A stretch of 64,000 bases of DNA from a virus: the IMG/VR virus record IMGVR_UViG_3300032313_001263, positions 1 through 64,000 of that record. One strand, written 5' to 3'. The notes under the pieces are model-generated. The model had not been told where the DNA came from. It did no database searches and was given only the letters and a program-made list of their open reading frames with translations. Of the stretch, positions 17,035 through 37,093 are shown piece by piece. The first letter of the stretch is position 1. Each line of letters starts with the position of its first letter. Both the position numbers and the translations under genes were made by a program.

Positions 17035-20000
17035 ATGGAGTTCAACGGTAAAAGTCCTAATGGGTTAAATCAGTTAAGTGCAAGTTTAGTATCACTTTTT
17101 GTGAGTGGTGGAGCTGTAATTAATGTATCACCCCAATCGGTAAATGTTTTAACAGATATTACAGCATCTGGGGTTCAAACCTCGGAAATAAATCCATCTG
17201 TTGGTGGAACGTTATCCATTCAAGGAAATACAAAAATAACAGGTTCATTATTAGTATCATCATCAATTTCCGCATCTTCAGTAGTTGCAAATACATTAAG
17301 TGGTGATGGTAGTGGTATAACTAACATTCCAGCATCATCAATTGGTGATATTGATAGAATTAAATCAGGTTCAGTACAAACAATAATCTCACCAAACAAA
17401 GGGTTAGAAGTACAAACATCATTGACAGTAAAAGACTTTTTAGTTGTAACTGGTAGTGGTATTTTTAGAGGAGATTTGAGTGTAGCTGGTACAATTAATA
17501 CAACTGAATTAAAAGCAACTTATATATCTGCTTCAATTATTTTCGCAAGTGGAAGTAACAAATTTGGTGATAATGTAGTTGATAAGCATGAATTTACTGG
17601 AAGTGTTGGTATTAGTGGTTCAATATTTGTAACCGGAAATACAATTGCAACTGATATTACTACCGATGAGGTATTAGTACTAAACACAACCACAGGTAGA
17701 ATTGGTAGAAAGTTTGCAGCTGCATCTTCTGGTACTTCTGGAACAAGCGGTACATCTGGTACAACTGGTTCAAGCGGTACAACTGGTTCAAGCGGTACAA
17801 CTGGTTCAAGCGGAACATCTGGTACTTCTGGTACATCTGGTAGTGGAGGAACATCTGGTACATCTGGTAGTGGGGGAACATCTGGAACATCTGGGACATC
17901 GGGTACTTCTGGTACTTCTGGTTCTTCGGGAACAACTGGTTCGTCTGGTTCGTCTGGTACATCAGCAACAAGCGGCACATCTGGTACATCTGGAACAAGC
18001 GGAAGTGGTGGAACGTCTGGAACAAGCGGAAGTGGTGGTTCTTCAGGTACTTCTGGTTCAAGCGGAAGTAGTGGTTCATCGGGTACAACGGGTTCATCGG
18101 GTACAACTGGTTCATCTGGTACAACTGGTTCATCTGGTACAACAGGTTCATTTGGTACAACGGGTTCAAGTGGTATTTCTGGAACAAGTGGAACAAGTGG
18201 AACATCAGGTACATCTGGAACTTCTGGAACAAGTGGTATAACTGGAGCTGGTGGTTCATCGGGTTCATCTGGTAGTGGTGGTACATCTGGAACAAGTGGT
18301 AGTAGTGGTACAACGGGTTCATCTGGTACATCTGGTAGTGGTGGTAGTGGTGGAACATCTGGTACATCAGGTACATCTGGTTCAAGTGGTATAACTGGTG
18401 CAGGTGGAGGCGCTGGTACTGCTGGTAGTGGTGGTACATCTGGTACATCTGGAACAAGCGGTACATCTGGAACAAGAGGTACTTCTGGAACTTCTGGAAC
18501 AAGCGGAACATCTGGAACATCGGGTACGTCTGGTTCAAGTGGAACAATGGGAACTGCTGGAAGTGGTGGTACATCTGGAACATCGGGTACTTCTGGTACA
18601 AGCGGTAGTTATGGTACATCTGGAACAAGTGGTAGTAGTGGAACTTCCGGAACAAGCGGTACTTCTGGTACTTCTGGTTCGGCTGGGGCAACTGGTTCTT
18701 CTGGTTCAGCTGGTACATCGGGTACTTCTGGAACTTCTGGAGCATTATCTATAAGTGGTACAACCGATAATGGTGTAATTACTCTTAATGGTGCATCTCC
18801 AAACGTAACTGCGGAAGCTAATCTTAGATTTGATGGTACTACATTAACGGTAACTGGAAACGAAACCCTTAGTGGTAACTTAACTGTTGGTGGTACAATC
18901 AGAGCACAACAAATATTTGTACAATACATTTCCGCATCTTTAATTTACGCATCTGGTTCAAACAAATTTGGTGATGCAACAAATGATAAGCAAGAATTTA
19001 GTGGAAGTGTTGATATTAGAGATTCAATAGCAATTCCAGCATTCGCAACAAACCCTGTTGGTACAAAAGCTGGACAAATATATTACAACACAGGTGATAC
19101 AAACATATATCGATACAATGGTACAACTTGGTTAGCAGCAGCTGGTACTTCTGGTTCTGCTGGTACTTCTGGTACTTCTGGAACAAGCGGTAGTAGTGGT
19201 ACTTCTGGTACTTCTGGAACAAGCGGAACATCTGGTACTTCGGGAACTTCTGGTGTAAGTGGTTCTGCTGGAAGTAGTGGAACTTCTGGTACAAGCGGTA
19301 CATCTGGTACATCTGGTACATCGGGAACAAGCGGAACTTCTGGTACATCCGGAACAAGTGGTACTTCTGGTACAAGCGGAACTTCTGGTTCAAGCGGTAG
19401 TAGTGGTTCATCTGGTTCAAGCGGTAGTAGTGGTTCATCTGGTTCAAGCGGTAGTAGTGGTTCATCTGGAAGTAGTGGTGGAGCTGGTGTACCTGGTTCT
19501 CCTGGTACGCCGGGAGCAAGTGGTTCATCGGGTTCTTCTGGAACGTCTGGTACATCTGGAACTTCTGGTACAAGAGGAACATCTGGTACAAGCGGAACAT
19601 CTGGTACAAGCGGAACATCTGGTACATCTGGAACATCTGGTTCATCTGGAACAAGTGGAACATCTGGAACATCTGGAACATCTGGAACAAGTGGAACACG
19701 TGGAACATCTGGTTCTTCTGGTTTACTATCTTTAACCGGTACAACTAATAATGGTGTAATTACATTGGATGGAACTGCACCAAACGCAACTGTTGAGGCA
19801 AATTTAACATTTGATGGTACTATTTTAAACGTAAATGGTAGAGTTGATGCTGATAACTTCTATGATAGTACAGGTACATTCAACGTAAACTTAGGTAGTG
19901 GTAATAGTGAAGGTAGAGGTTTAGTTGCTGGATATAGTGGTGGTTCTTATGGTGGTCTTGGATATAACGTAAGGCACACTGGAACTGGTGGAACATATAT

Positions 20001-23000
20001 TTCACCATTGGGAGATACGGCAACATATTTATTATTTAGTCAAGGATTTACTTTCTTAAATGACCAAGGCACAGCTGCTGGTAGAACATCTTCATTTACT
20101 CAAATAGGTAGATTGGATAATGCAGGTACATTTACAATTCCTGGTAACTTAGTTGCAGCACAGGTAAATACTGGACAAGGTCTGACAGAAGTTCATCTAA
20201 TGAATCAAAACATTCGTACATCCGATTCTCCAACATTCAATTCAATAACACTTTCTAATAACGGAGCAAATGTTATTATGAGTGGTAATGGTGCAGCAGA
20301 GGGTATTAGAATGACGCCTACAAACTCGACTACATATCCTGTATTTCTTCGTTCTATAAATCCTGGTAGTGGTGGTGAAGCATCTCCTTGGATTTATAAA
20401 GAAACTTCCGAACCATGGGGTATTTGGCATAATAATCCAATAAATACAATTGACTTTACAAGAGCATCAACTACTGGTATTGAAAACAATGTTGGTGGTG
20501 GTACAAATACTGTAATGTTAAGATTGGATATGGCGAATGGTGATATAACAGCATATCGCAATATGTACGCTCAAGCATTCTACGATTATAGTGATAACAA
20601 TTACTTTGTAGACCCTAACGGACAATCTCGTATTAGTAGAATGAATATTAGTGCAGCACAAGTCCAAGCAACAAACAATGCAGGTGGTAGATTACGAATT
20701 TCATCATATACAACTGGAACAGGTGAGATAAGTGCGGATACTTACAATATAGTATTAGGACCTTCCGCAACAAGAAGTGGTACTGGATATTATGCTGGTA
20801 TAGCAATAAATGGTTTATTAAATTACAATGGAGCTACTTCATACGATGTTTCACCTCATATTTGGATTGGTGGACAATATAGAGATACGCCAGGTTCGGA
20901 ACGTTCTGATTTTGTTATAGCAGTTAAATCTGGTACTGGTACAACTGGTACTGGCACTGATTTACCTCAAGTTAGAGTAAGAGTAGATTATAGTGGTATA
21001 ATGACAGTTAGTGGTGATGTTAGAGCACCAATATTTTATGATTCCGATAACACAGCATATTTTACAAATCCGGCATCCGATTCAAATTTAAATACGGGTA
21101 CTTTTAATGGTAGAATGAAATACTCAAACTATTTGGTTAGTAATAACAATGGTGGTTTGATGGGTGATTACACTGTTAATGGTACAACATCAAAAGTAAT
21201 TTGGACAATTGGTGAAAGTTGGCCAATAGGTAATATGTACGGATTGGGTTATGAATACGGAAGTGGATATGACCATCACTTAGCATTAAGAAACAATGGT
21301 ACAACTTACTCTCGTTTTGGATTTGCTGGTGGAGCATTTATAGGTGGAAACTTAACATTAGGTACTGATTTATATGCATATAGATTCTACGATAGAGATA
21401 ATACTGCATATTATGCTGACCCAGCCGGAACATCAGTTTTTACATATTTAACCATTGCAAACGGAAACTCTGTTCAAGCAAATGGATATAATAACAATGG
21501 TGGGTTTGCAATGAATAACGCATCTACCTATTGGGGATTGGTATGGAATTTTGCGGCAAATGATTGGAGATTGGGGTATGGTTCAACTACTTCACAAGTT
21601 GGTTGGAACTTACGTTGGGATAATGGTAGTACGGCATTTGCACAAAACTTCCAAGCTAACATATATTACGATGCACAAAATACTGGATATTATGTAGACC
21701 CTAATTCGGGTTCAACCTCAATAAGAACCGCAGGTGATTGGAGGTCGGATTCGGGATCATGGTCTGGTGAATTTGCTGGTAAAATACAATACCATAGTAA
21801 TAACTGGTATTTTCAATATGCAGGTCAATTCTTATTTAGAAATAGTGGTGGTTCAAACGTAACTTATGGTGATACTTCAGGTAATCTATGGGCAGTTACA
21901 TCAATGCGTTCACCAATATTCTATGATGAAAATAATACTGGATATTATTTAGATGCGGCTTCTGATAGAAGTACAAATATTAACGGTTGGAATACAACTA
22001 CGCAAGCTAGAACAGGTGAAACTTTTAAATACAATTATTGGAGACCTTATATAACTGGAGATACTAACTATTGGACAGGACAAATGGGTTGGGGTACTAC
22101 GGATTTAAATACCGTAATGACATGGGGTAGTGGATTTTTTGATACATGGTCAAATCCAGCAAATCAACCATCTGGTACTTCTCACTGGGTAGGTGTTCAA
22201 ACATATCACTATGTAAATGGATACAATAGTGGATATGGATGGCAATTGGCTGGTGGTCCAATATCAAATTTAAGGTTTAGAAACTCTTGGTCAAGTAATA
22301 GTGGTTGGTGTACTGTTGCAATGCATGACCGTAACGATGGTAGTGGTGGTGGTTTATACGCAGGTGCATATTATGATGCAAATGATAGTGGATATTATTT
22401 AGACCCTAATAGTACTTCAAATTCTGCATTGAGAATCAGAGGTGGTGCATTACATGGACCTAACCCTTCTTGGGGAGCATATATGTACGTTGGTTCAAAT
22501 GGTAGACCTGGTGGTGAGGGTTCTGTTGTAGTAACAAATGGTAACTTACACTTAGATTGCCAAAACGGATATGAAACTTATATTAACCACTATTCTGGTA
22601 ATAGAACGTATCTATATGAAATAAGAACAAACTTTATTTACGATAGAGATAATACGGGATACTATTTAGACCCTAATGGTACATCATATCAAAACGTTGT
22701 GTATGGGGCTATATTCTATGACCACGATAGTACTTGGTATGGTGATTTCAATAGTAACTCTAGAATGAACTCGGGTGATTTCTATTTTGTTGGATTTGGT
22801 CATATGTATCGATTGGGTACACAAAATTCGTGGAATGCATACGAAGGATTTGGTGTTTCAAACTCTGATAATGGGCAAAACGCAACATTTGAAGTAAACG
22901 TTTATGGTAATGGTGGTGACTGGAATTCTTGTGGTATGAATTCCAACGCTCGTAAATATGAGTGGTATTGCGGATACACCAAAATGATGGACTTGGATGA

Positions 23001-23427
23001 AGGTGGACACTTGAGAACTAGAGGTGCACAATGGGAGTGGAATGGTTTCTCTGATGCAGATTTGAAAACCAACTTACAGGTTATTGATAATGCATTAGAA
23101 AAAATATCACAAATTAGTGGTTATACTTATGAATTTACTGAAGATTCTCCATATAGAAACAATGATATTGAGGAAAGAACACATGGTGCTGGTTTAATTG
23201 CACAAGAAGTTGAAGCAGTATTACCTGTATTGGTTGATGAAGATTGGGTTGGTGGTGAATATAATAGATACTTCAAAACTCTTAACTACAATGGTGTACA
23301 TGGTTTGACTGTTCAGGGTATTAAAGAATTAAAAGGATATCATGATACATTAGAAGATAGAGTTGCTGCATTGGAAAGTAGATTGGAGCAATTGGAAAGT
23401 AGAATACAAAATTTAGAAAATCAATAA
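17035..23427 (+). CDS. Collagen-like tail fibre with C-terminal S74 intramolecular chaperone
   Basis: A 2130-residue fibre. Residues 1-230 hold shaft units like those of the giant fibre upstream, including SGSNKFGDN. Two collagen-like tracts follow (~232-569 and ~703-896), each ending in the cap module (T-x-N-G-V-I-T-L-x-G). Residues ~900-1990 carry repeated F/Y-Y-D-x-D-N-T-x-Y-Y-x-D-P-x-G/S units typical of phage fibres. The C-terminus is a peptidase S74 / endosialidase chaperone domain: [10 protein letters not shown] around Ser2006-Asp2007, then [32 protein letters not shown] and a coiled coil [16 protein letters not shown]. In this family the domain trimerises the fibre and then cuts itself off at the Ser-Asp site, which would release ~125 residues here. 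Confidence 0.88.
17728..18741 (+). repeat. Collagen-like Gly-X-Y coding repeat, first tract
   Basis: About 338 residues of Gly-X-Y, rich in G-T-S, G-S-S, G-T-T and G-S-G. It ends at the sequence encoding [17 protein letters not shown], the same cap module that ends the tract in the other fibre. Confidence 0.9.
19141..19722 (+). repeat. Collagen-like Gly-X-Y coding repeat, second tract
   Basis: About 194 residues of Gly-X-Y. A run of pure G-S-S triplets and a single classical collagen-like stretch [13 protein letters not shown] interrupt the G-T-S pattern. It ends at [17 protein letters not shown], again the shared cap module. Confidence 0.9.
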
Positions 23428-24387: not shown

Positions 24388-26724
24388 ATGGCAGAAAGAA
24401 TTGTATCACCCGGTGTATTCACAAGAGAAAACGATTTATCCTTCTTAACGCAAGGAATCGGTGAAATCGGAGCAGCATTTATAGGACCTTTCAAACAAGG
24501 ACCAGCATTCATTCCAACGATTGTAAGAAGTCAATCGGAATTTGAAGAAATCTTCGGAACACCCGATGGAACATATTATACTGAATATGCAGTACAAAAT
24601 TACCTTAGAGAAGCTGGAACAGCAACTATCGTAAGAGTAGCTGGTGTTGGTGGATATCAACAACCATCACCATTAGCAATAAAAGGGGTGGATATTAATG
24701 GAAACTCTAAAATAGTAGGAGTTTTGCATTCTACTAAAGTTGGATATTCAGGTGGAACTACTGTTGGATTTCAAGCAGCTAGCACATCAATAACAGGTAG
24801 TGGATTAGCAACTTCTGGTTCATTTGTATTGACTGGATTTTTCTCTTCTGGTTCATCTGCAGCATCTATAAGTGGTAGTATATTTTCAACAGCTGTAAAT
24901 GATTTGGGTGATGTATTTGGTGAATCTCCATTTGGAGCTAAAAAGGCATATTCTTACATTTATTTAGAAAATGCTGTAAGTGCTTCTTATACTGGTTCTG
25001 GGTTAAATAGAGTTGAGGCAACTACACTACCAACTCAAGATTACGCATACGATGCACAAGCAGCAGAAACACCAATGGTTCAATCACAATTGATTAGTGG
25101 TGAGAGATACGATTTATTTAAATTTGTAACATTAGGACATGGTACATTATATAATACTAAATTTAAAATTGGTATTTCAAATGTAAAAGCAGCTGGTGAA
25201 GATGGAGCAACTGATTATTCTGTATTTACTGTAACAATTCGTTCTTATAGTGATACTGATAAGAGAAAAGTTGTTTTAGAAACTTACAACAATGTAAACT
25301 TAGACCCTGCTTCTCCAAACTATATTGCAAGAAAAATCGGTGATAGATATATGACTATTGATGGTAATGGTAAAATTACTGAATTTGGTGATTACTCAAA
25401 CAAATCAAAATATGTAAGAGTTGAAGTATCAGCTCAGGGTTCATTCCCTATATCAGCAGCACCATTTGGACATACTGCATATACAAACCCAATTAAAGCA
25501 AATAGTAACGCTGAAGCTAGACAATTCCCAGCAATAACTTTCCAAACAAATTCAACTGGAAACACATCATCATCTCCAATTTATTATGCTGGATTTGATT
25601 TTGAAACTACTGGTGTATCATTAGATAACAAACAATATTTAAAACCAATTCCTGTAAATGCTGAAACTGGTTCTAACATAGCATTTGCATTTGATTCTCA
25701 ATTGACATATGTAATGACTGGTTCGGTTTCTTCTGATATGGTTAAAAGACAATTTGTATTAGGATTCCAAAATGGATTTGATGGTTCTAATCCAACAATT
25801 CCTGTTAATTTGGGAACTGATATTAGTGCAGCTAACACACAGGGATTAAATTGCGCAACTTCAACAACATCCGGTTCAGTAGCATACTCTAAAGCAATCA
25901 ACGCAGTATCTAATCCTGATGAATGGGACATTAATATGGTTGTAACTCCTGGTATTATAAGAAGTTTACACCCTGCAATTACCACAAAGGCAATTGATAT
26001 GTGTGAAGATAGACAAGATTGTTTCTACATTGCTGATTTTAACGCATCTGCGGATACGATTACTGAAGCAACTGAACAAGCTAATTCTGTGGATTCAAAC
26101 TATGTAGCAACTTATTACCCTTGGGTTAAAACTATTGATAGTAACACAAATAAATTATTGAGTGTTCCACCATCAGTATTGTTACCCGCAGTATTTGCAC
26201 AAAACGATAGATTGGCAGCAGAATGGTTCGCACCTGCTGGTTTGAATAGAGGTGGTATCACTGGAGCAGTTAGTGTATTAAATAGATTAACACACTCTGA
26301 AAGAGATACTCTATATGAGAACAAAGTAAACCCAATCGCAGCATTTCCTGGACAAGGTATTGTAGCATTTGGACAAAAAACATTGCAAGATAGAGCATCT
26401 GCTTTGGATAGAATCAACGTAAGAAGATTATTAATCACTGTTAAGAAATACATTGCTTCTACATCTCGTTATTTAGTGTTCGAACAAAACACATCAACGA
26501 CTAGAGCTAGTTTCTTAGCAACGGTAAATCCATATTTGGAAAACATCCAAAAGAAGCAAGGTTTATACGCATTTAGAGTGGTAATGGATGAAACTAACAA
26601 CACTCCTGATGTAATTGATAGAAATATATTAGCTGGACAGATATTCTTACAACCTGCGAAGACTGCTGAATTCATCGTAATTGATTTCAACATCTTACCA
26701 ACTGGAGCATCGTTTACAGCATAA
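24388..26724 (+). CDS. Contractile tail sheath protein (T4 gp18-like)
   Basis: A 778-residue sheath subunit. The N-terminus VSPGVFTRENDLSFLTQGIG and the next ~70 residues (GPFKQGPAF, then FGTPDGTYYTEYAVQNYLREAGT and VRVAGVGGYQ, in adjoining segments) are the standard start of myovirus sheaths. The C-terminal third carries AGLNRGGITGAVSVLNRLTHSERDTLYENKVNPI-type sequence in adjoining segments and the final FEQNTSTTRASFLATVNPYL and YAFRVVMDETNN segments that make up the conserved inner domain. The subunit polymerises around the tube and contracts on infection. Size is slightly larger than T4 gp18 (659 residues), with the extra length in the middle, surface-exposed part. The tube gene follows directly, as in other myoviruses. 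Confidence 0.96.
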   Translation: MAERIVSPGVFTRENDLSFLTQGIGEIGAAFIGPFKQGPAFIPTIVRSQSEFEEIFGTPDGTYYTEYAVQNYLREAGTATIVRVAGVGGYQQPSPLAIKGVDINGNSKIVGVLHSTKVGYSGGTTVGFQAASTSITGSGLATSGSFVLTGFFSSGSSAASISGSIFSTAVNDLGDVFGESPFGAKKAYSYIYLENAVSASYTGSGLNRVEATTLPTQDYAYDAQAAETPMVQSQLISGERYDLFKFVTLGHGTLYNTKFKIGISNVKAAGEDGATDYSVFTVTIRSYSDTDKRKVVLETYNNVNLDPASPNYIARKIGDRYMTIDGNGKITEFGDYSNKSKYVRVEVSAQGSFPISAAPFGHTAYTNPIKANSNAEARQFPAITFQTNSTGNTSSSPIYYAGFDFETTGVSLDNKQYLKPIPVNAETGSNIAFAFDSQLTYVMTGSVSSDMVKRQFVLGFQNGFDGSNPTIPVNLGTDISAANTQGLNCATSTTSGSVAYSKAINAVSNPDEWDINMVVTPGIIRSLHPAITTKAIDMCEDRQDCFYIADFNASADTITEATEQANSVDSNYVATYYPWVKTIDSNTNKLLSVPPSVLLPAVFAQNDRLAAEWFAPAGLNRGGITGAVSVLNRLTHSERDTLYENKVNPIAAFPGQGIVAFGQKTLQDRASALDRINVRRLLITVKKYIASTSRYLVFEQNTSTTRASFLATVNPYLENIQKKQGLYAFRVVMDETNNTPDVIDRNILAGQIFLQPAKTAEFIVIDFNILPTGASFTA

Positions 26725-26777: not shown

Positions 26778-27275
26778 ATGGCAGAAATATTAGAATACAA
26801 TAAGATTTTCTTTCAGAATTTCGAACCGAAAATGAAAAACCGCTTTATAATGGAATTCACTGGCACTGGAATCCAAGCATATACTGTAAAAGCGGCAAAT
26901 AGACCATCAATTACATTTGAAAAGGTAACAATGGACCATATCAACGTTAAAAGACAGTTGAAAGGTAAAGGAGAATGGCAAGATTTAGAGGTAACTCTTT
27001 ATGACCCAATCGTACCTTCTGCTGCACAAGCGGTAATGGAATGGATTCGTTTATCACATGAATCTGTAACTGGTAGAGATGGATACGCTGATTTCTATAA
27101 AAAAGATATTACTATCAAAATGTTAGGACCTGTGGGTGATGTAATCGAAGAATGGAAATTAATGGGAGCATTCATTTCAGCAGCTAACTTTGGTGATTTG
27201 GATTGGAGTAACGCTACTGACCCTGCTAACATTACATTGACTTTATCAATGGATTACGCTATTTTGGAGTACTAA
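26778..27275 (+). CDS. Tail tube protein (T4 gp19-like)
   Basis: A 165-residue protein, very close to T4 gp19 in length (163). The N-terminal FEPKMKNRFIMEF segment and the middle RQLKGKGEWQDLEVTLYDP match the tube family. The C-terminal part (MLGPVGDVIEEWKLMGAFIS, then DWSNATDPANITLTLSMDYA) is the conserved tube fold. It forms the hexameric inner tube through which DNA passes. It lies between sheath and tail-assembly chaperone genes, the usual order. A terminator follows at 27297, so tube and sheath may be made from a separate, abundant transcript. Confidence 0.95.
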   Translation: MAEILEYNKIFFQNFEPKMKNRFIMEFTGTGIQAYTVKAANRPSITFEKVTMDHINVKRQLKGKGEWQDLEVTLYDPIVPSAAQAVMEWIRLSHESVTGRDGYADFYKKDITIKMLGPVGDVIEEWKLMGAFISAANFGDLDWSNATDPANITLTLSMDYAILEY

Positions 27276-27386: not shown

Positions 27387-28148
27387 ATGGCAGAAAGAGA
27401 ATACGATTTTCCAACGGAAGTATTAGATTTACCATCGAACGGTAAGTTATATCCAAAAGACCACCCATTGGCATCTGGAAAAATCACAATAAAGTATATG
27501 ACAGCAAAAGAAGAAGACATTCTTTCTTCTCAAAACCTTATTAAAAAAGGTGTTGTGTTGGATAAATTGTTTGAATCTATTATTGTGGATAGAGTAAATC
27601 CAGATGATATTATAATTGGTGATAAAAACGCAATATTATTAGCAACAAGATTGTTAGGTTATGGGCCTGATTATAAATCAAGCTTTTATTCATCCGTACT
27701 TGGTGATATTGTAGAAGCTAATATAGATTTATCGGCAATTAAAATTAAAGAAGTAGATACATCCAAATTTAATAATAAAAATAGTTTTGAATTCACTACA
27801 CCCATTGGTAAAAACAAAATTACATTTAAAATACTTACGCATGGTGATGAGAAGTTAATTGATAAAGATATTGAAGCATTACAAAAAGTAAATAAAGATG
27901 TTTCTTTTGATATTACAACAAGATTAAGACATATGATTACTTCGGTAGATGGAAATTCCGATATATCACATATTGGTAAATACATAAACGGAATGTTGGC
28001 TAGAGATAGTAGAGCATTTAGAGAATATGTAAAAACAATCACACCGGATGTAAATATGAAAGTGGAATACACCCATGAAAATGGGGAGGTGGAGGAGGCG
28101 CCTGTTACACTTGGTGTTGGGTTTTTTTGGCCTTCCTCTGAATCATAG
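27387..28148 (+). CDS. Tail assembly chaperone / T4 gp26-type baseplate hub family, 0-frame product
   Basis: A 253-residue protein. The N-terminus (YDFPTEVLDLPSNGKLYP, then KYMTAKEEDILSSQNLIKKG) is typical of the T4 gp26-like family that sits between tube and tape measure in T4-like phages. It has no membrane segment or signal peptide. It ends VGFFWPSSES at three consecutive stops in this frame (TAG TAG TAA). Related proteins, as I recall them, continue past the FFWP motif into a region ending in MP-x-x-L-R-x-F-Y. That region is present here but in the +1 frame (28147-28341). This is the classical position of tail assembly chaperones made by programmed frameshifting. Without the shift, the short form would be made alone. 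Confidence 0.85.
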   Translation: MAEREYDFPTEVLDLPSNGKLYPKDHPLASGKITIKYMTAKEEDILSSQNLIKKGVVLDKLFESIIVDRVNPDDIIIGDKNAILLATRLLGYGPDYKSSFYSSVLGDIVEANIDLSAIKIKEVDTSKFNNKNSFEFTTPIGKNKITFKILTHGDEKLIDKDIEALQKVNKDVSFDITTRLRHMITSVDGNSDISHIGKYINGMLARDSRAFREYVKTITPDVNMKVEYTHENGEVEEAPVTLGVGFFWPSSES

Positions 28149-28341
28149 TAGTAATCTACACACTCAAATATTTGAAATGTGTAATTATGGTAACGGATTT
28201 AATATGATGGAATTGTATAAAATGCCAACATACCTACGAAGATTCTATTACAATAAATTAGTAGAAGCAAAAGAAAAGGAAAACGAAAATAATAAAGAAG
28301 CAAATTCTGGTAAATCATCAAAGGTTAGGATTAAGAGATAG
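28147..28341 (+). CDS. +1-frame extension of the tail assembly chaperone (probable programmed frameshift)
   Basis: This frame encodes SSNLHTQIFEMCNYGNGF, then MMELYKMPTYLRRFYYNKLV and a Lys/Glu/Asn-rich tail. It looks like the missing C-terminal part of the gp26/chaperone family. It joins the 0 frame by a +1 shift, either at the T7 run 28122-28128 or at the stop 28146-28148; the second keeps the conserved FFWP, so I favour it. A shift there gives 253 + 64 = 317 residues. An independent start at ATG 28177 (54 residues) is possible, but the family-like sequence begins upstream of it. A hairpin terminator overlaps the stop codon. A single-base sequencing error would look the same. Confidence 0.65.
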   Translation, partial: SSNLHTQIFEMCNYGNGFNMMELYKMPTYLRRFYYNKLVEAKEKENENNKEANSGKSSKVRIKR

Positions 28342-28406: not shown

Positions 28407-28631
28407 ATGGCAAAGTATAAAATATCAGAAGGTAATTTTGATAAATTTCTTTCTTTTTTTGGTGTAAACAAAAATGATAGACCTCAAAAAATTGATGATG
28501 TAATTGCATCTGACCCCAAATTAGCTAAAATTGATAAAGAATTAGGTAATTTAAACAGACAAGCTGCTGAAAGAATAAAAAGAAGTCCTGAATTAAGAAG
28601 AATGTTTAAAGCTGCTGGTCTTGAATACTAA
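28407..28631 (+). CDS. Small basic helical protein before the tape measure
   Basis: A 74-residue, highly charged protein (KYKISEGNFDKFLSFFGV, then Q-K-I-D-D-V-I, ending RIKRSPELRRMFKAAGLEY). It is predicted to be helical throughout. It lies between chaperone and tape measure, 8 nt upstream of the latter, and shares its probable promoter. Small proteins with a similar C-terminus occur in T4-like phages of aquatic bacteria, as I recall. It may be a tail assembly factor. No catalytic motif is seen. Confidence 0.65.
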   Translation: MAKYKISEGNFDKFLSFFGVNKNDRPQKIDDVIASDPKLAKIDKELGNLNRQAAERIKRSPELRRMFKAAGLEY

Positions 28632-28639
28632 TAGTAAAA

Positions 28640-31042
28640 ATGGCTGAAAATATAAATGATAAAATAAAAAGCACTCAAAAAGAAATTGATGCTGCTGATG
28701 CTAAACGCTTGGAATCTCTTGCTAAAATTGAAGAGGCTGAAAAACGTATTGTCGCAATTCAAGCTGATAAAGCATTACCCAATAAGAAGAAATTAATAGA
28801 AGCCCAAAAAAAATTATTAGAGTTAGAAAAAGAAAGTATATCCAATTCAGAAAAAGTAGTATCGCAAGAAACTAAAAGATTAACAAGATTAGAAAGACAT
28901 AAAGCAATTCAAAAAGACAGTATAAAAGAATTTAATTCATTTTCTAAATCTTATAAAAATTTAGAACCTGATATAAAAAAACAACTAGAATTAGATAAAA
29001 CCAAAGGTCAAGTATATACATCGTTAAATGCTGAAATGGCTAAAGAACGGGCAGTTGCGAAAAATAGTGAGGGTGCTGCATTAGAAAGAGCAAACAAACG
29101 ATTGGATGTAATGAATAGTTTATCATCAGAAATGATGGCACAAGCTGAAGAAACTGATAGAGCTCAAATGGAACTTGCTGGAGCTAAAGAAATTGATTTT
29201 AAATTAAGAGAAATAAAGTTATTAAGAGAAAGGGGAGAGATAACACAAAGACAATACGAAAGTATAAAAGATGCAATTCATTATACTGAAAAATTAGAAA
29301 AAAGAACCGAAGCATTAAATGAAATAGCGGAAAAGCAACATGAAATATTTCATGCAGTTCCTGAAGAATTACAAAGTAGTGTAACGGGAGCTTTTGCATT
29401 TGGTAGAACTTTAATGGCCGCTGGTATGGCGGCAGCTCCATTGTTATTAGTAGTAAGTGCGTTGGCATTGGCTGTTCACTCTTTTGTAGAATTAGATAAA
29501 GAAGCATCCGATTACCGAAAAACAACTGGTATGACTGCAAAGCAAACCGAACATCTTGCACATCAAGCGCATGAAGTTGAGGTTGCGTATAGGGGAATGG
29601 GAGTTGAGTTAAAAAATGTATTTGATGTTGCAAATTCTCTTGGTAATGAATTTTCAAATGTTGCTCATTTTTCAACACAAACATTAGGAGCATTAGCGGC
29701 TGTTACTGCTGTAACTGGTACAACTGCTGAAAACGCTGCAAAAGTACAAGCCGTATTTGAACAAGTTGGTGGTGTTAGTTCTGAAACAGCCGCAAGTATG
29801 CAAATGCAGGTAGCATCTTTAGCTCAACAAGCTGGCGCAGCTCCAAAAGAAGTATTGGATGATATTGCAGAAAGTGCTGAAATTACATCTAAATTTTTTA
29901 AAGGTGATATAAATTTATTAAAACAACAGGCAATTCAAGCTAATAGATTGGGTACTACTTTGGCTGGAATTGCAAAAACAGCAGAGGCATTATTGGATTT
30001 TGAAGGTGGTATTGAAGAAGAATTGGTAGCAGCAACTTTTGTTGGTGGGCAATTTAATTTATCAAGAGCTAGAGCATTAGCATTGGAAGGTAAATTAATC
30101 CAAGCTCAAGAAGAAACACTTTCACAAATTCAAAGAAGTGGAGATTTTAGAAAACAAGATTATTTTACTCAACAACAATTAGCTAAAGCAGCTGGTATGA
30201 GTGTTGAGGAAATAAATAAGCAACTTAATATGCAAGAAAGACTTGCTCATTTAGGTGAAAAAGAGAAAAAATTAGCTATGGAAGCGGTTGCGGCTGGATT
30301 GGATACTACTGATTTAAATGATGAGCAATTAAAACAAAAAATAGATGAGTTTGCGGCAAATCAAAAAATAATGGGTCAATTAGATACTATGATGGCTCAA
30401 TTCAAAGCAATTGCAGCTACTGTTGGTAGTGCGTTATCTCCTTTATTAGAAGCAGTTGTACCTATACTAACAACCTTAGCTAAAGCAGCAGCTTTTGTGT
30501 TTGAATCAATAAATAAAGTTCCTGGTCTATTACCTGGTTTAATTGGTGGATTTACTGCTTTGTATTTACTCACTAAAAGAGCAGCAATAGTATCTACCGT
30601 AAAGGCAGTTGCTGAAATATTTGCAGGAAATGCAAAATTAGGACCGGTTGGTATAATAACCGCAGGAATTGCGGCTGGTGCATTATTTGCATCTTTAGGT
30701 AAAGCAAAAGCAACCGATGTTGGTGATGTTATGTCTCCTTCAGGTGGTAGAACTCAAATATCAACAAAAGAAGGTGGATTACTTAATTTATCCGCAAATG
30801 ATGATGTAGTTGCTGCACCAAATTTAATAAGTTCAATACAATCTCAAAATAAAAGTGGTGGTGTATCCCAAATACAATCAAATAGTGGACCTAATTATAC
30901 TTTAAGACTTGTTGATAAAATGGATAGTTTGATAGCAGCAGTTTCTGCAAATAAAGATACTTATTTAGATGGTTCACGTGTTTCATCTAATTTAAAAAAT
31001 GTAACTAATAAGAGTAATAGAAATAACTTTGCATTAGCATAA
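28640..31042 (+). CDS. Tape measure protein
   Basis: An 800-residue protein. The first ~245 residues are a charged coiled coil (EKRIVAIQADKALPNKKKLI and similar). A hydrophobic segment follows at ~255-280 (AAGMAAAPLLLVVSALALAV). Then comes a long helical region rich in Ala and Gln, with a second hydrophobic stretch (~595-680, containing PGLLPGLIGGFTALYLL and GIITAGIAAGALFASL). This is the layout of tape measure proteins, which set tail length and help membrane passage of DNA. Position after the chaperone agrees. At roughly 0.15 nm per residue, the helical scaling rule, 800 residues would give a tail of about 120 nm. Confidence 0.85.
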   Translation: MAENINDKIKSTQKEIDAADAKRLESLAKIEEAEKRIVAIQADKALPNKKKLIEAQKKLLELEKESISNSEKVVSQETKRLTRLERHKAIQKDSIKEFNSFSKSYKNLEPDIKKQLELDKTKGQVYTSLNAEMAKERAVAKNSEGAALERANKRLDVMNSLSSEMMAQAEETDRAQMELAGAKEIDFKLREIKLLRERGEITQRQYESIKDAIHYTEKLEKRTEALNEIAEKQHEIFHAVPEELQSSVTGAFAFGRTLMAAGMAAAPLLLVVSALALAVHSFVELDKEASDYRKTTGMTAKQTEHLAHQAHEVEVAYRGMGVELKNVFDVANSLGNEFSNVAHFSTQTLGALAAVTAVTGTTAENAAKVQAVFEQVGGVSSETAASMQMQVASLAQQAGAAPKEVLDDIAESAEITSKFFKGDINLLKQQAIQANRLGTTLAGIAKTAEALLDFEGGIEEELVAATFVGGQFNLSRARALALEGKLIQAQEETLSQIQRSGDFRKQDYFTQQQLAKAAGMSVEEINKQLNMQERLAHLGEKEKKLAMEAVAAGLDTTDLNDEQLKQKIDEFAANQKIMGQLDTMMAQFKAIAATVGSALSPLLEAVVPILTTLAKAAAFVFESINKVPGLLPGLIGGFTALYLLTKRAAIVSTVKAVAEIFAGNAKLGPVGIITAGIAAGALFASLGKAKATDVGDVMSPSGGRTQISTKEGGLLNLSANDDVVAAPNLISSIQSQNKSGGVSQIQSNSGPNYTLRLVDKMDSLIAAVSANKDTYLDGSRVSSNLKNVTNKSNRNNFALA

Positions 31043-36712: not shown

Positions 36713-37089
36713 GGGGATGACCGGCTTTTGACAGGTATGAAGACTGGTTGTATTGATGCAAGTAAGGTTAGATGGAAACCTTTGAAGACCTATCAAACAA
36801 TAAGTGCAGACGTAGAATTATCTACAATGACTTTCGGAGATGCTATGGCATGGATGGAGTCTTTCGATTACGCAGTAGCTGCCTAATCGTTCCCGTATCA
36901 CTCATGGGATTTAAAAAGAAGTGAACATTTAAGTTTACCGAAACTCTAAATCGGTTGGTGGAATCTGCTGAATTAACCATTCGGCCCCAATTCTTTTGGA
37001 GTGTTAGTAAGATAAAACACTATCCTAAACTTGTGAACGATTTACATTAGAAACTTATTTGGACGCGGGTTCGAATCCCGCCATCTCCA
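36713..37089 (+). ncRNA. ssrA: Transfer-messenger RNA (tmRNA)
   Basis: The 5' end GGGGATGACCGGCTTTTGACA and the 3' end form the tRNA-like domain. Acceptor arms GGGGATG (36713-36719) and CATCTCC (37082-37088) pair over 7 bp with one G-U. The T arm is GCGGG-TTCGAAT-CCCGC (37065-37081), and base A37089 is the discriminator. CCA is not encoded. The tag frame ends at TAA 36884-36886 and encodes ...MESFDYAVAA. The resume codon cannot be fixed by eye; GGA at 36836 would give the 16-residue tag GDAMAWMESFDYAVAA, longer than the ~9-11 residues usual in bacteria. tmRNA frees stalled ribosomes and tags the product for proteolysis. It has its own promoter and terminator. Confidence 0.93.
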
Positions 37090-37093
37090 CTAC

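Follow-up and report, generated by a model that had tools for sequence, protein, structure and literature searches.

A putative programmed +1 frameshift on a U7 run, preceded by a Shine-Dalgarno-like tract and a hairpin, in the tail assembly chaperone gene of an uncultured virus and its relatives

A gene of the tail assembly chaperone type was analysed in a 64,000-nucleotide stretch of DNA (the window), positions 1 to 64,000 of the 96-kb uncultured virus record IMGVR_UViG_3300032313_001263 of IMG/VR, whose hosts are uncultured bacteria, probably Bacteroidota. The gene begins with an open reading frame (ORF) of 253 amino acids, ORF A (27387-28148, plus strand; the short, TAC-N or gp26-like form), which ends, as the initial annotation had read it, in GVGFFWPSSES (TLGVGFFWPSSES; APVTLGVGFFWPSSES) at the stop codon TAG at 28146, followed by TAG TAA. 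Its last codons are GGG TTT TTT TGG CCT TCC TCT GAA TCA TAG, and the T run in them (T7) occupies exactly 28122-28128 in the phasing GGG TTT TTT TGG. The +1 frame overlaps ORF A, is open across the whole overlap and encodes a conserved domain of about 50 residues, the T domain (HTQIFEM...MPTYLRRFYYNKL, also written LHTQIFEMCNYGNGFNMMELYKMPTYLRRFYYNKLVEAK... or LHTQIFEMCNYGNGFNMMELYKMPTYLRRFYYNKL), before its own stop TAG at 28339-28341. This +1-frame extension (T domain, TAC-C; 28129-28341, plus strand), assigned by the profile match in relatives, comprises 70 codons and the stop. Reading +1 from the T run would give a fusion protein of 317 amino acids (...GVGFFGLPLNHSSNLHTQ...), and the T frame contains ATG codons at 28075, in the upstream overlap, and at 28177. 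Two further features lie upstream of the run on the same strand, namely a purine tract resembling a Shine-Dalgarno (SD) sequence (GGGGAGGTGGAGGAGG, 28083-28098, positions -39 to -24 from the T run), located by its duplex energy with the anti-SD, and a predicted hairpin (28097-28118), in which GGCGCC (28097-28102) faces GGUGUU (28113-28118) and whose end lies 3 nt before the run.

Relatives were drawn from IMG/VR and the GenBank phages, which gave 214 distinct loci with both domains. The T domain is in the +1 frame in 199 of them and in the -1 frame in 15, and in nearly all relatives, down to about 35% identity, it follows TTT TTT T in +1. The extension of the chaperone in the +1 frame, which the initial annotation had expected, is confirmed as real and lies far beyond chance; a single-base error, named there as a possible refutation, fails as an explanation because the 199 distinct relatives share the arrangement. 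A fresh set of 16 further loci from bacterial and archaeal assemblies, never used for defining the motif, agreed with this. One of them runs off its contig, and 14 of the 15 readable loci, two of which share one contig, have the T domain in +1 and TTT TTT T ahead of GG or TC, and 13 of these 14 have the SD-like tract. The locus L313, with 26% identity, reads TTC TTT CGG (UUU_C). About half of the 16 loci come from bins named after Bacteroidota (Saprospiraceae, Winogradskyella, Flavobacteriaceae, Flavobacteriales and Sphingobacteriales).

As part of the whole explanation developed below, with which it is graded jointly, we regard it as highly probable that the shift maps to the T run at 28122-28128 and goes in the +1 direction. 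The alignment of relatives, which had been proposed as a check, supports both the frame and the site. The run or a one-base variant of it (TTT TTT T, TTT CTT T, TTC TTT T or CTT TTT T) is kept in 195 of the 199 +1 relatives: TTT TTT TGG in 145, TTT TTT TAC, TAT or TTC in 43, TTT CTT TGG in five, which are distinct and occur in at least two separate regions of the tree (L040/L099/L112; L118), TTC TTT TAC in one and CTT TTT TGG in one (L284). The remaining +1 sites are TTT CTA TTC in a jumbo phage about 38% identical (L042) and those of three Gram-positive phages, in which the site is unclear. The codon in the aminoacyl (A) site across relatives is TGG, TAC, TAT or TTC. The Phe codons at the site are TTT in 98-100%, compared with a share of 69-85% in five further columns of conserved Phe, and none of the 195 genes has a second in-frame T7. 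In 34 of the 195 only 2 nt separate the end of a +1-frame stop from the run, and the 0-frame stop (TAA, TAG or TGA) lies 15-27 nt past the run start. In the narrowest cases, where the +1-frame stop precedes the run by 2 nt and the 0-frame stop comes 18 nt past the run start, the T run is taken as the shift site because it is the only stretch where a tRNA in the peptidyl (P) site can re-pair one base on. Either the first or the second UUU_U can slip in the window with the same peptide as the result; only the second can do so in L081 and only the first in L042. Two observations fit dual coding directly after the run: the +1 frame conserves the first residues past the slip (GLP/GLT/TLP), and 134 of 140 representatives (<85% identity, the set used for all signal tests) use CCT for the 0-frame Pro. 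A T directly ahead of the run was found in one of the 195, against 97.5 expected, so that the -1 heptamer U_UUU_UUU is removed. SP-15, LIS04 and GXN1 likewise have a +1-frame extension, with an unclear slip site, and Rhodothermus phage RM378 has TTT TTT TGG with an open +1 frame whose extension lacks a match to the T profile.

A sister clade with the T domain in the -1 frame (L025, L028, L029, L133-L143 and L272) comprises six tree rows with support 100 and is nested among the +1 lineages. This clade keeps FFWP and writes it AAT TTC TTC TGG, with all site Phe codons TTC, which creates the heptamer A_AAU_UUC. A -1 site of the form X_XXY_YYZ is present in the nested clade (L025 and others), and neither the window nor the +1 clade has one. 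A -1 shift is suggested for several proteobacterial jumbo phages, too, which end in T_TTT_TTC near the stop.

The synonymous sites of the 140 representatives are most unusual near the run. The mean anti-SD energy at -33 is -6.3, compared with -1.95 in synonymous-codon nulls, and the best anti-SD site reaches -5 or lower in 122 of 140 (87%) versus 6% in a control region; the thresholds for these signals were chosen after inspection of the data. SD core motifs were found in 102 of the 140 representatives and in 0 of 12 in the -1 clade, and the core starts most often at -31 from the run. In the window the best anti-SD duplex of the tract is strong (-11.7 kcal/mol). The minimum-energy fold of the window instead pairs the purine tract with T7 and the following CCTTCC, a candidate that was rejected: it had no excess over relatives (-7.69, compared with -7.64 in the local-codon null), and for this reason the SD reading was preferred. 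For the hairpin between the tract and the run, a single consensus register was tried and failed, as stems occur in several registers, and the comparison of own with swapped halves was used because of that failure. The mean hairpin energy is -5.83, against -3.42 in the background-codon null, -4.22 in the local-codon null and -4.07 (sd 0.15) when the halves were swapped, and stems of at least 7 bp occur in 40 sequences compared with 16.2 +- 3.1 after swapping. The 3' end of the hairpin is most often at -4 from the run. Different clades carry different stems (CGCCC/GGGCG, GACTCC/GGAGTC, GGTGAC/GTCACC and GACATCC/GGATGTC), which amounts to covariation. A stable hairpin close before the slip site was thus found across relatives, with a weak copy in the window, and in L042, which has another slip codon, both the SD (-12.4) and the hairpin (-11.2) are kept. 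Judged from the sequences, the SD-like tract and the hairpin are conserved beyond the amino-acid requirement and are under selection.

Eighteen representatives lack the SD, and 11 of them carry a strong downstream hairpin (+10 to +36, -6 or lower). The strong SD and the downstream hairpin are mutually exclusive (Fisher p 6e-9, kinship not corrected). A GC-rich strong hairpin at +10 to +36 was seen in L098, L108-L110, L119, L149, L163, L169, L176, L193, L223 and L228 and also in L261, L276, L281 and L288, and its carriers mostly lack the upstream SD. The own-versus-swapped test was also positive at +12 to +37, partly owing to these lineages.

The tract stands out in this genome because an SD of -5 or lower was found at none of the 37 plus-strand start codons of the window, compared with 15% of random positions. 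Such starts without SD fit Bacteroidia, in which the anti-SD is occluded at initiation and the prfB frameshift is kept in 72% of surveyed genomes (PMC8710568). The plus-strand gene starts of the window are A-rich, as in Bacteroidia. The gene of bS21, a protein able to alter the access to the anti-SD, is absent from the 96-kb record; bS21 is encoded in 5 of 17 related phage records (L294, Microcystis phage Mel-JY01, and L295-L298). In Bacteroidia bS21 helps to occlude the anti-SD.

Taken together, the gene would very probably be expressed through a programmed +1 shift at U7 that is pushed by a 5' element made of the SD-like tract and the hairpin. Most ribosomes would terminate at 28146 and release the 253-residue short form, and a minority would shift +1 on UUU_UUU_U, the tRNA-Phe in the P site re-pairing one base forward, and make the 317-residue form. 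With the ribosome on UUU UUU, we infer that the hairpin could refold behind it and/or the tract could pair with the anti-SD, so that the mRNA is pulled out, and slippage forward would relieve the strain from the refolding or from the SD:anti-SD duplex. The SD of prfB and synthetic upstream hairpins in 70S extracts act on the ribosome in this way. The folded hairpin may bring the distant SD to a roughly initiation-like spacing. The weak UUU in the exit (E) site may help as well, since weak E-site pairing favours +1 shifting (reviewed in PMC6321510), which fits the conserved first UUU. Upstream hairpins have been reported to stimulate +1 shifting on 70S ribosomes (PMC6321510, PMC3639245); with ribosomes of E. 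coli, the +1 stimulation by a stable upstream hairpin reached about 60% of that by an internal SD, and -1 shifting became less frequent (PMC6321510), and an increase of the spacing from 2 to 5 nt roughly halved the -1 attenuation (PMC3639245). In the lineages without SD the downstream hairpin may take over the stimulation. A certain ratio of the two forms may be needed for tail assembly, as in lambda.

Several points weigh against this explanation. The relatives are not independent, which inflates the z-values. The SD core lies about 24-30 nt ahead of the run, too far for the geometry of prfB (3 nt) unless the hairpin is folded, and the hairpin of the window is weak (-5.8 kcal/mol with three G-U pairs). 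Among the representatives the hairpin reaches -4 or lower in 95 of 140, is weak in a minority of relatives and varies in register. An own-versus-swapped folding signal at +36 to +61, inside the coding region of the T domain, occurs in many relatives and has no account. The use of the SD during elongation in such hosts is uncertain as well, given that the anti-SD of F. johnsoniae ribosomes is kept occluded (PMC8710568). It is possible, and we think unlikely, that the +1 shift is real and the tract and the hairpin serve otherwise, for example in slowing of ribosomes or mRNA stability, with the efficiency coming from U7 and the Trp/Tyr A-site codon alone. The unusual SD distance, the many weak hairpin copies and the established knowledge that UUU-type sites can shift unaided speak for it; however, both elements end just before the run and are associated with the +1 lineages, not the -1 clade, and the absence of the SD goes with the downstream hairpin.

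The identity of the slip codons bears on two alternatives to the +1 shift at U7. Slippage by -2 on U7, as in phage Mu and arteriviruses, would reach the same frame with one extra residue; T7 of the window permits -2 re-pairing and such shifts are known for phage tail chaperones (PMC5009743). Transcriptional slippage on T7 would give mRNAs one base longer or shorter, and a seven-base homopolymer in an AT-rich genome is suited to it. However, the relatives with TTT CTT T, TTC TTT T and TTT CTA are +1-competent (CUU_U, UUU_U and UUU_C), permit no -2 re-pairing and have no long homopolymer, and they still keep the T domain in +1. These CUU and UUC variants make both alternatives unlikely. The -2 shift and polymerase slippage are, in our judgement, both highly improbable; against the latter, T8 is avoided and not favoured, as seen from the base before the run.

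A similarly slight probability is given to translation of the T domain from its own start codon, like the separate T4 genes 26 and 51. The ATG codons of the T frame allow this in the window, and T4 itself reportedly has two genes (Vladimirov 2022, as cited in PMC10885494). Against it, 86 of the 195 relatives have no ATG, GTG or TTG in the stretch from the preceding stop in that frame to the T domain, and in the 34 with a stop 2 nt before the run, a product started upstream could not reach the T domain. The start at 28177, which the initial annotation had offered as a refutation of frameshifting, fails on the same count, and its ATG would cut off the beginning of the T domain. The initial annotation had placed the shift either at T7 or at the first stop codon; the first part of this held and the second did not, as a prfB-like +1 shift at the stop, suggested by the nearness of the stop to the run and by the +1 shifts of the prfB type in Bacteroidia (PMC8710568), has next to no probability when the conserved feature is T7 and not the stop context, the distance and identity of the stop vary and the preceding codon (TCA, GAG, GAA, AAG and others) cannot re-pair. 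That reading was therefore supported in part, and the SD-like tract, the hairpin, the CUU_U variants, the -1 sister clade and the downstream-hairpin lineages were absent from it.

Several searches bear on the identity of the proteins. ORF A matches PF12322 (T4_baseplate, E 5.5e-7, above the family cut-off) and phrog_150 (baseplate hub, E 6.6e-8). The AlphaFold model of the N part alone has a pLDDT of 89, and its matches in a viral structure library are T4-like baseplate hub and hub assembly proteins; against the HK97 chaperone 2ob9 the match is weak (probability 0.51, E 0.67). The best known-family match of the T part is weak as well (phrog_25875, tail assembly chaperone, E 0.3). The fusion profile had no match among PDB sequences, and Rfam has no family at the shift region. 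The gene stands between the tail tube gene (gp19-like, 26778-27275, plus strand; PF06841 E 3.6e-8, phrog_4542 E 3.3e-31), itself preceded by the tail sheath gene (24388-26724, plus strand; PF04984 E 5.1e-18, phrog_23 E 1.7e-71), and a probable tape measure gene of 800 codons (28640-31042, plus strand). Family searches with the product of the latter gave no match, and it was assigned by its position, which corresponds to that of the gene annotated as tape measure in Flavobacterium phage immuto. The order sheath, tube, ORF A, a 74-residue ORF and probable tape measure is annotated in immuto as well. The initial annotation of a chaperone gene before the tape measure gene agrees with the PF12322 match and this position. 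In the T4-like branch of G/GT systems, the gp26-type N part, a place between tube and tape measure and, at the sequence level, an extension in another frame reached through a conserved shift site are all found here. Graded jointly with the whole explanation, ORF A and the following +1 frame are very probably the gene of a T4-like tail assembly chaperone with a short (G-like) and a long (GT-like) form. The long chaperone lacks annotation in the GenBank record of phage immuto (L040, MW353176.1), and in Microcystis phage Mel-JY01 (L041, PP395634.1) it is split into two hypothetical proteins.

The system resembles the T4-like chaperones in its gp26/PF12322-type N part, the T domain behind it and the position before the tape measure gene; T4 is reported with two genes, as cited above, and here one gene and a frameshift would be used. 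Lambda also makes short and long chaperones (gpG and gpGT) from one gene beside the tape measure gene, but through a -1 shift, whereas here the shift is +1 on U7 and the stimulatory elements lie upstream. The frameshift of prfB is likewise +1 on a pyrimidine run with an upstream SD-like tract; its slip codon CUU_U occurs among the natural variants of the present site, and prfB itself has variants with a T run (PMC12421855). In prfB, however, the tract ends 3 nt before the slip codon, and here about 24-30 nt and a hairpin intervene. Hairpins that refold co-translationally a few nucleotides upstream of the slip site stimulate +1 and attenuate -1 shifting on 70S and 80S ribosomes (PMC6321510, PMC3639245). 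The published stimulators are synthetic or derived constructs, whereas the hairpin described here would be natural, conserved and combined with an SD. For the bypassing in T4 gene 60, a 5' stem loop that zippers at the mRNA exit has been suggested to drive the ribosome forward (PMC5009743), in a 50-nt jump and not a one-base shift. The archaeal myovirus HSTV-2 very likely uses +1 for its G/GT chaperones (PMC5009743), in a halophilic archaeon, unlike the hosts here.

T4-like chaperones, +1 chaperone shifts (HSTV-2) and stimulation by upstream hairpins are each already known. No description of their combination as a natural conserved element was found in the literature examined, which did not cover Vladimirov 2022. 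At sense codons, natural +1 frameshifts are, to our knowledge, rare in bacteria. We give about even chances to a broader reading of the comparisons, namely that this is a natural, widely conserved +1 shift that owes its direction to a composite 5' element (the SD-like tract and the hairpin refolding in the mRNA exit channel) in Bacteroidota phages without SD initiation, that its stimulators are exchangeable in evolution (upstream SD and hairpin, downstream hairpin, or a switch to -1) and that its output depends on the anti-SD being free in elongating ribosomes. Upstream hairpins that push ribosomes forward have so far been mainly synthetic, and hundreds of phage genomes appear to tune such a signal. 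The natural variants in slip codon, stimulator and direction may serve as a ready series for measuring what sets the direction of slippage, and they bear on how Bacteroidia ribosomes, with the anti-SD occluded at initiation, read SD-like tracts during elongation.

Some other features of the window were noted. The 74-residue ORF between the chaperone gene and the tape measure gene (28407-28631, plus strand) gave no match in family searches, and immuto has a short ORF at the matching position. An ORF of 2130 residues (17035-23427, plus strand) contains long repeats, and its C-terminal end resembles, by reading only, the intramolecular chaperone domain of tail fibres. The phage also carries a transfer-messenger RNA (tmRNA) gene at 36713-37092 on the plus strand (Rfam RF00023, 95.7 bits with a gathering threshold of 47), for which ARAGORN gave the tag ADVELSTMTFGDAMAWMESFDYAVAA.
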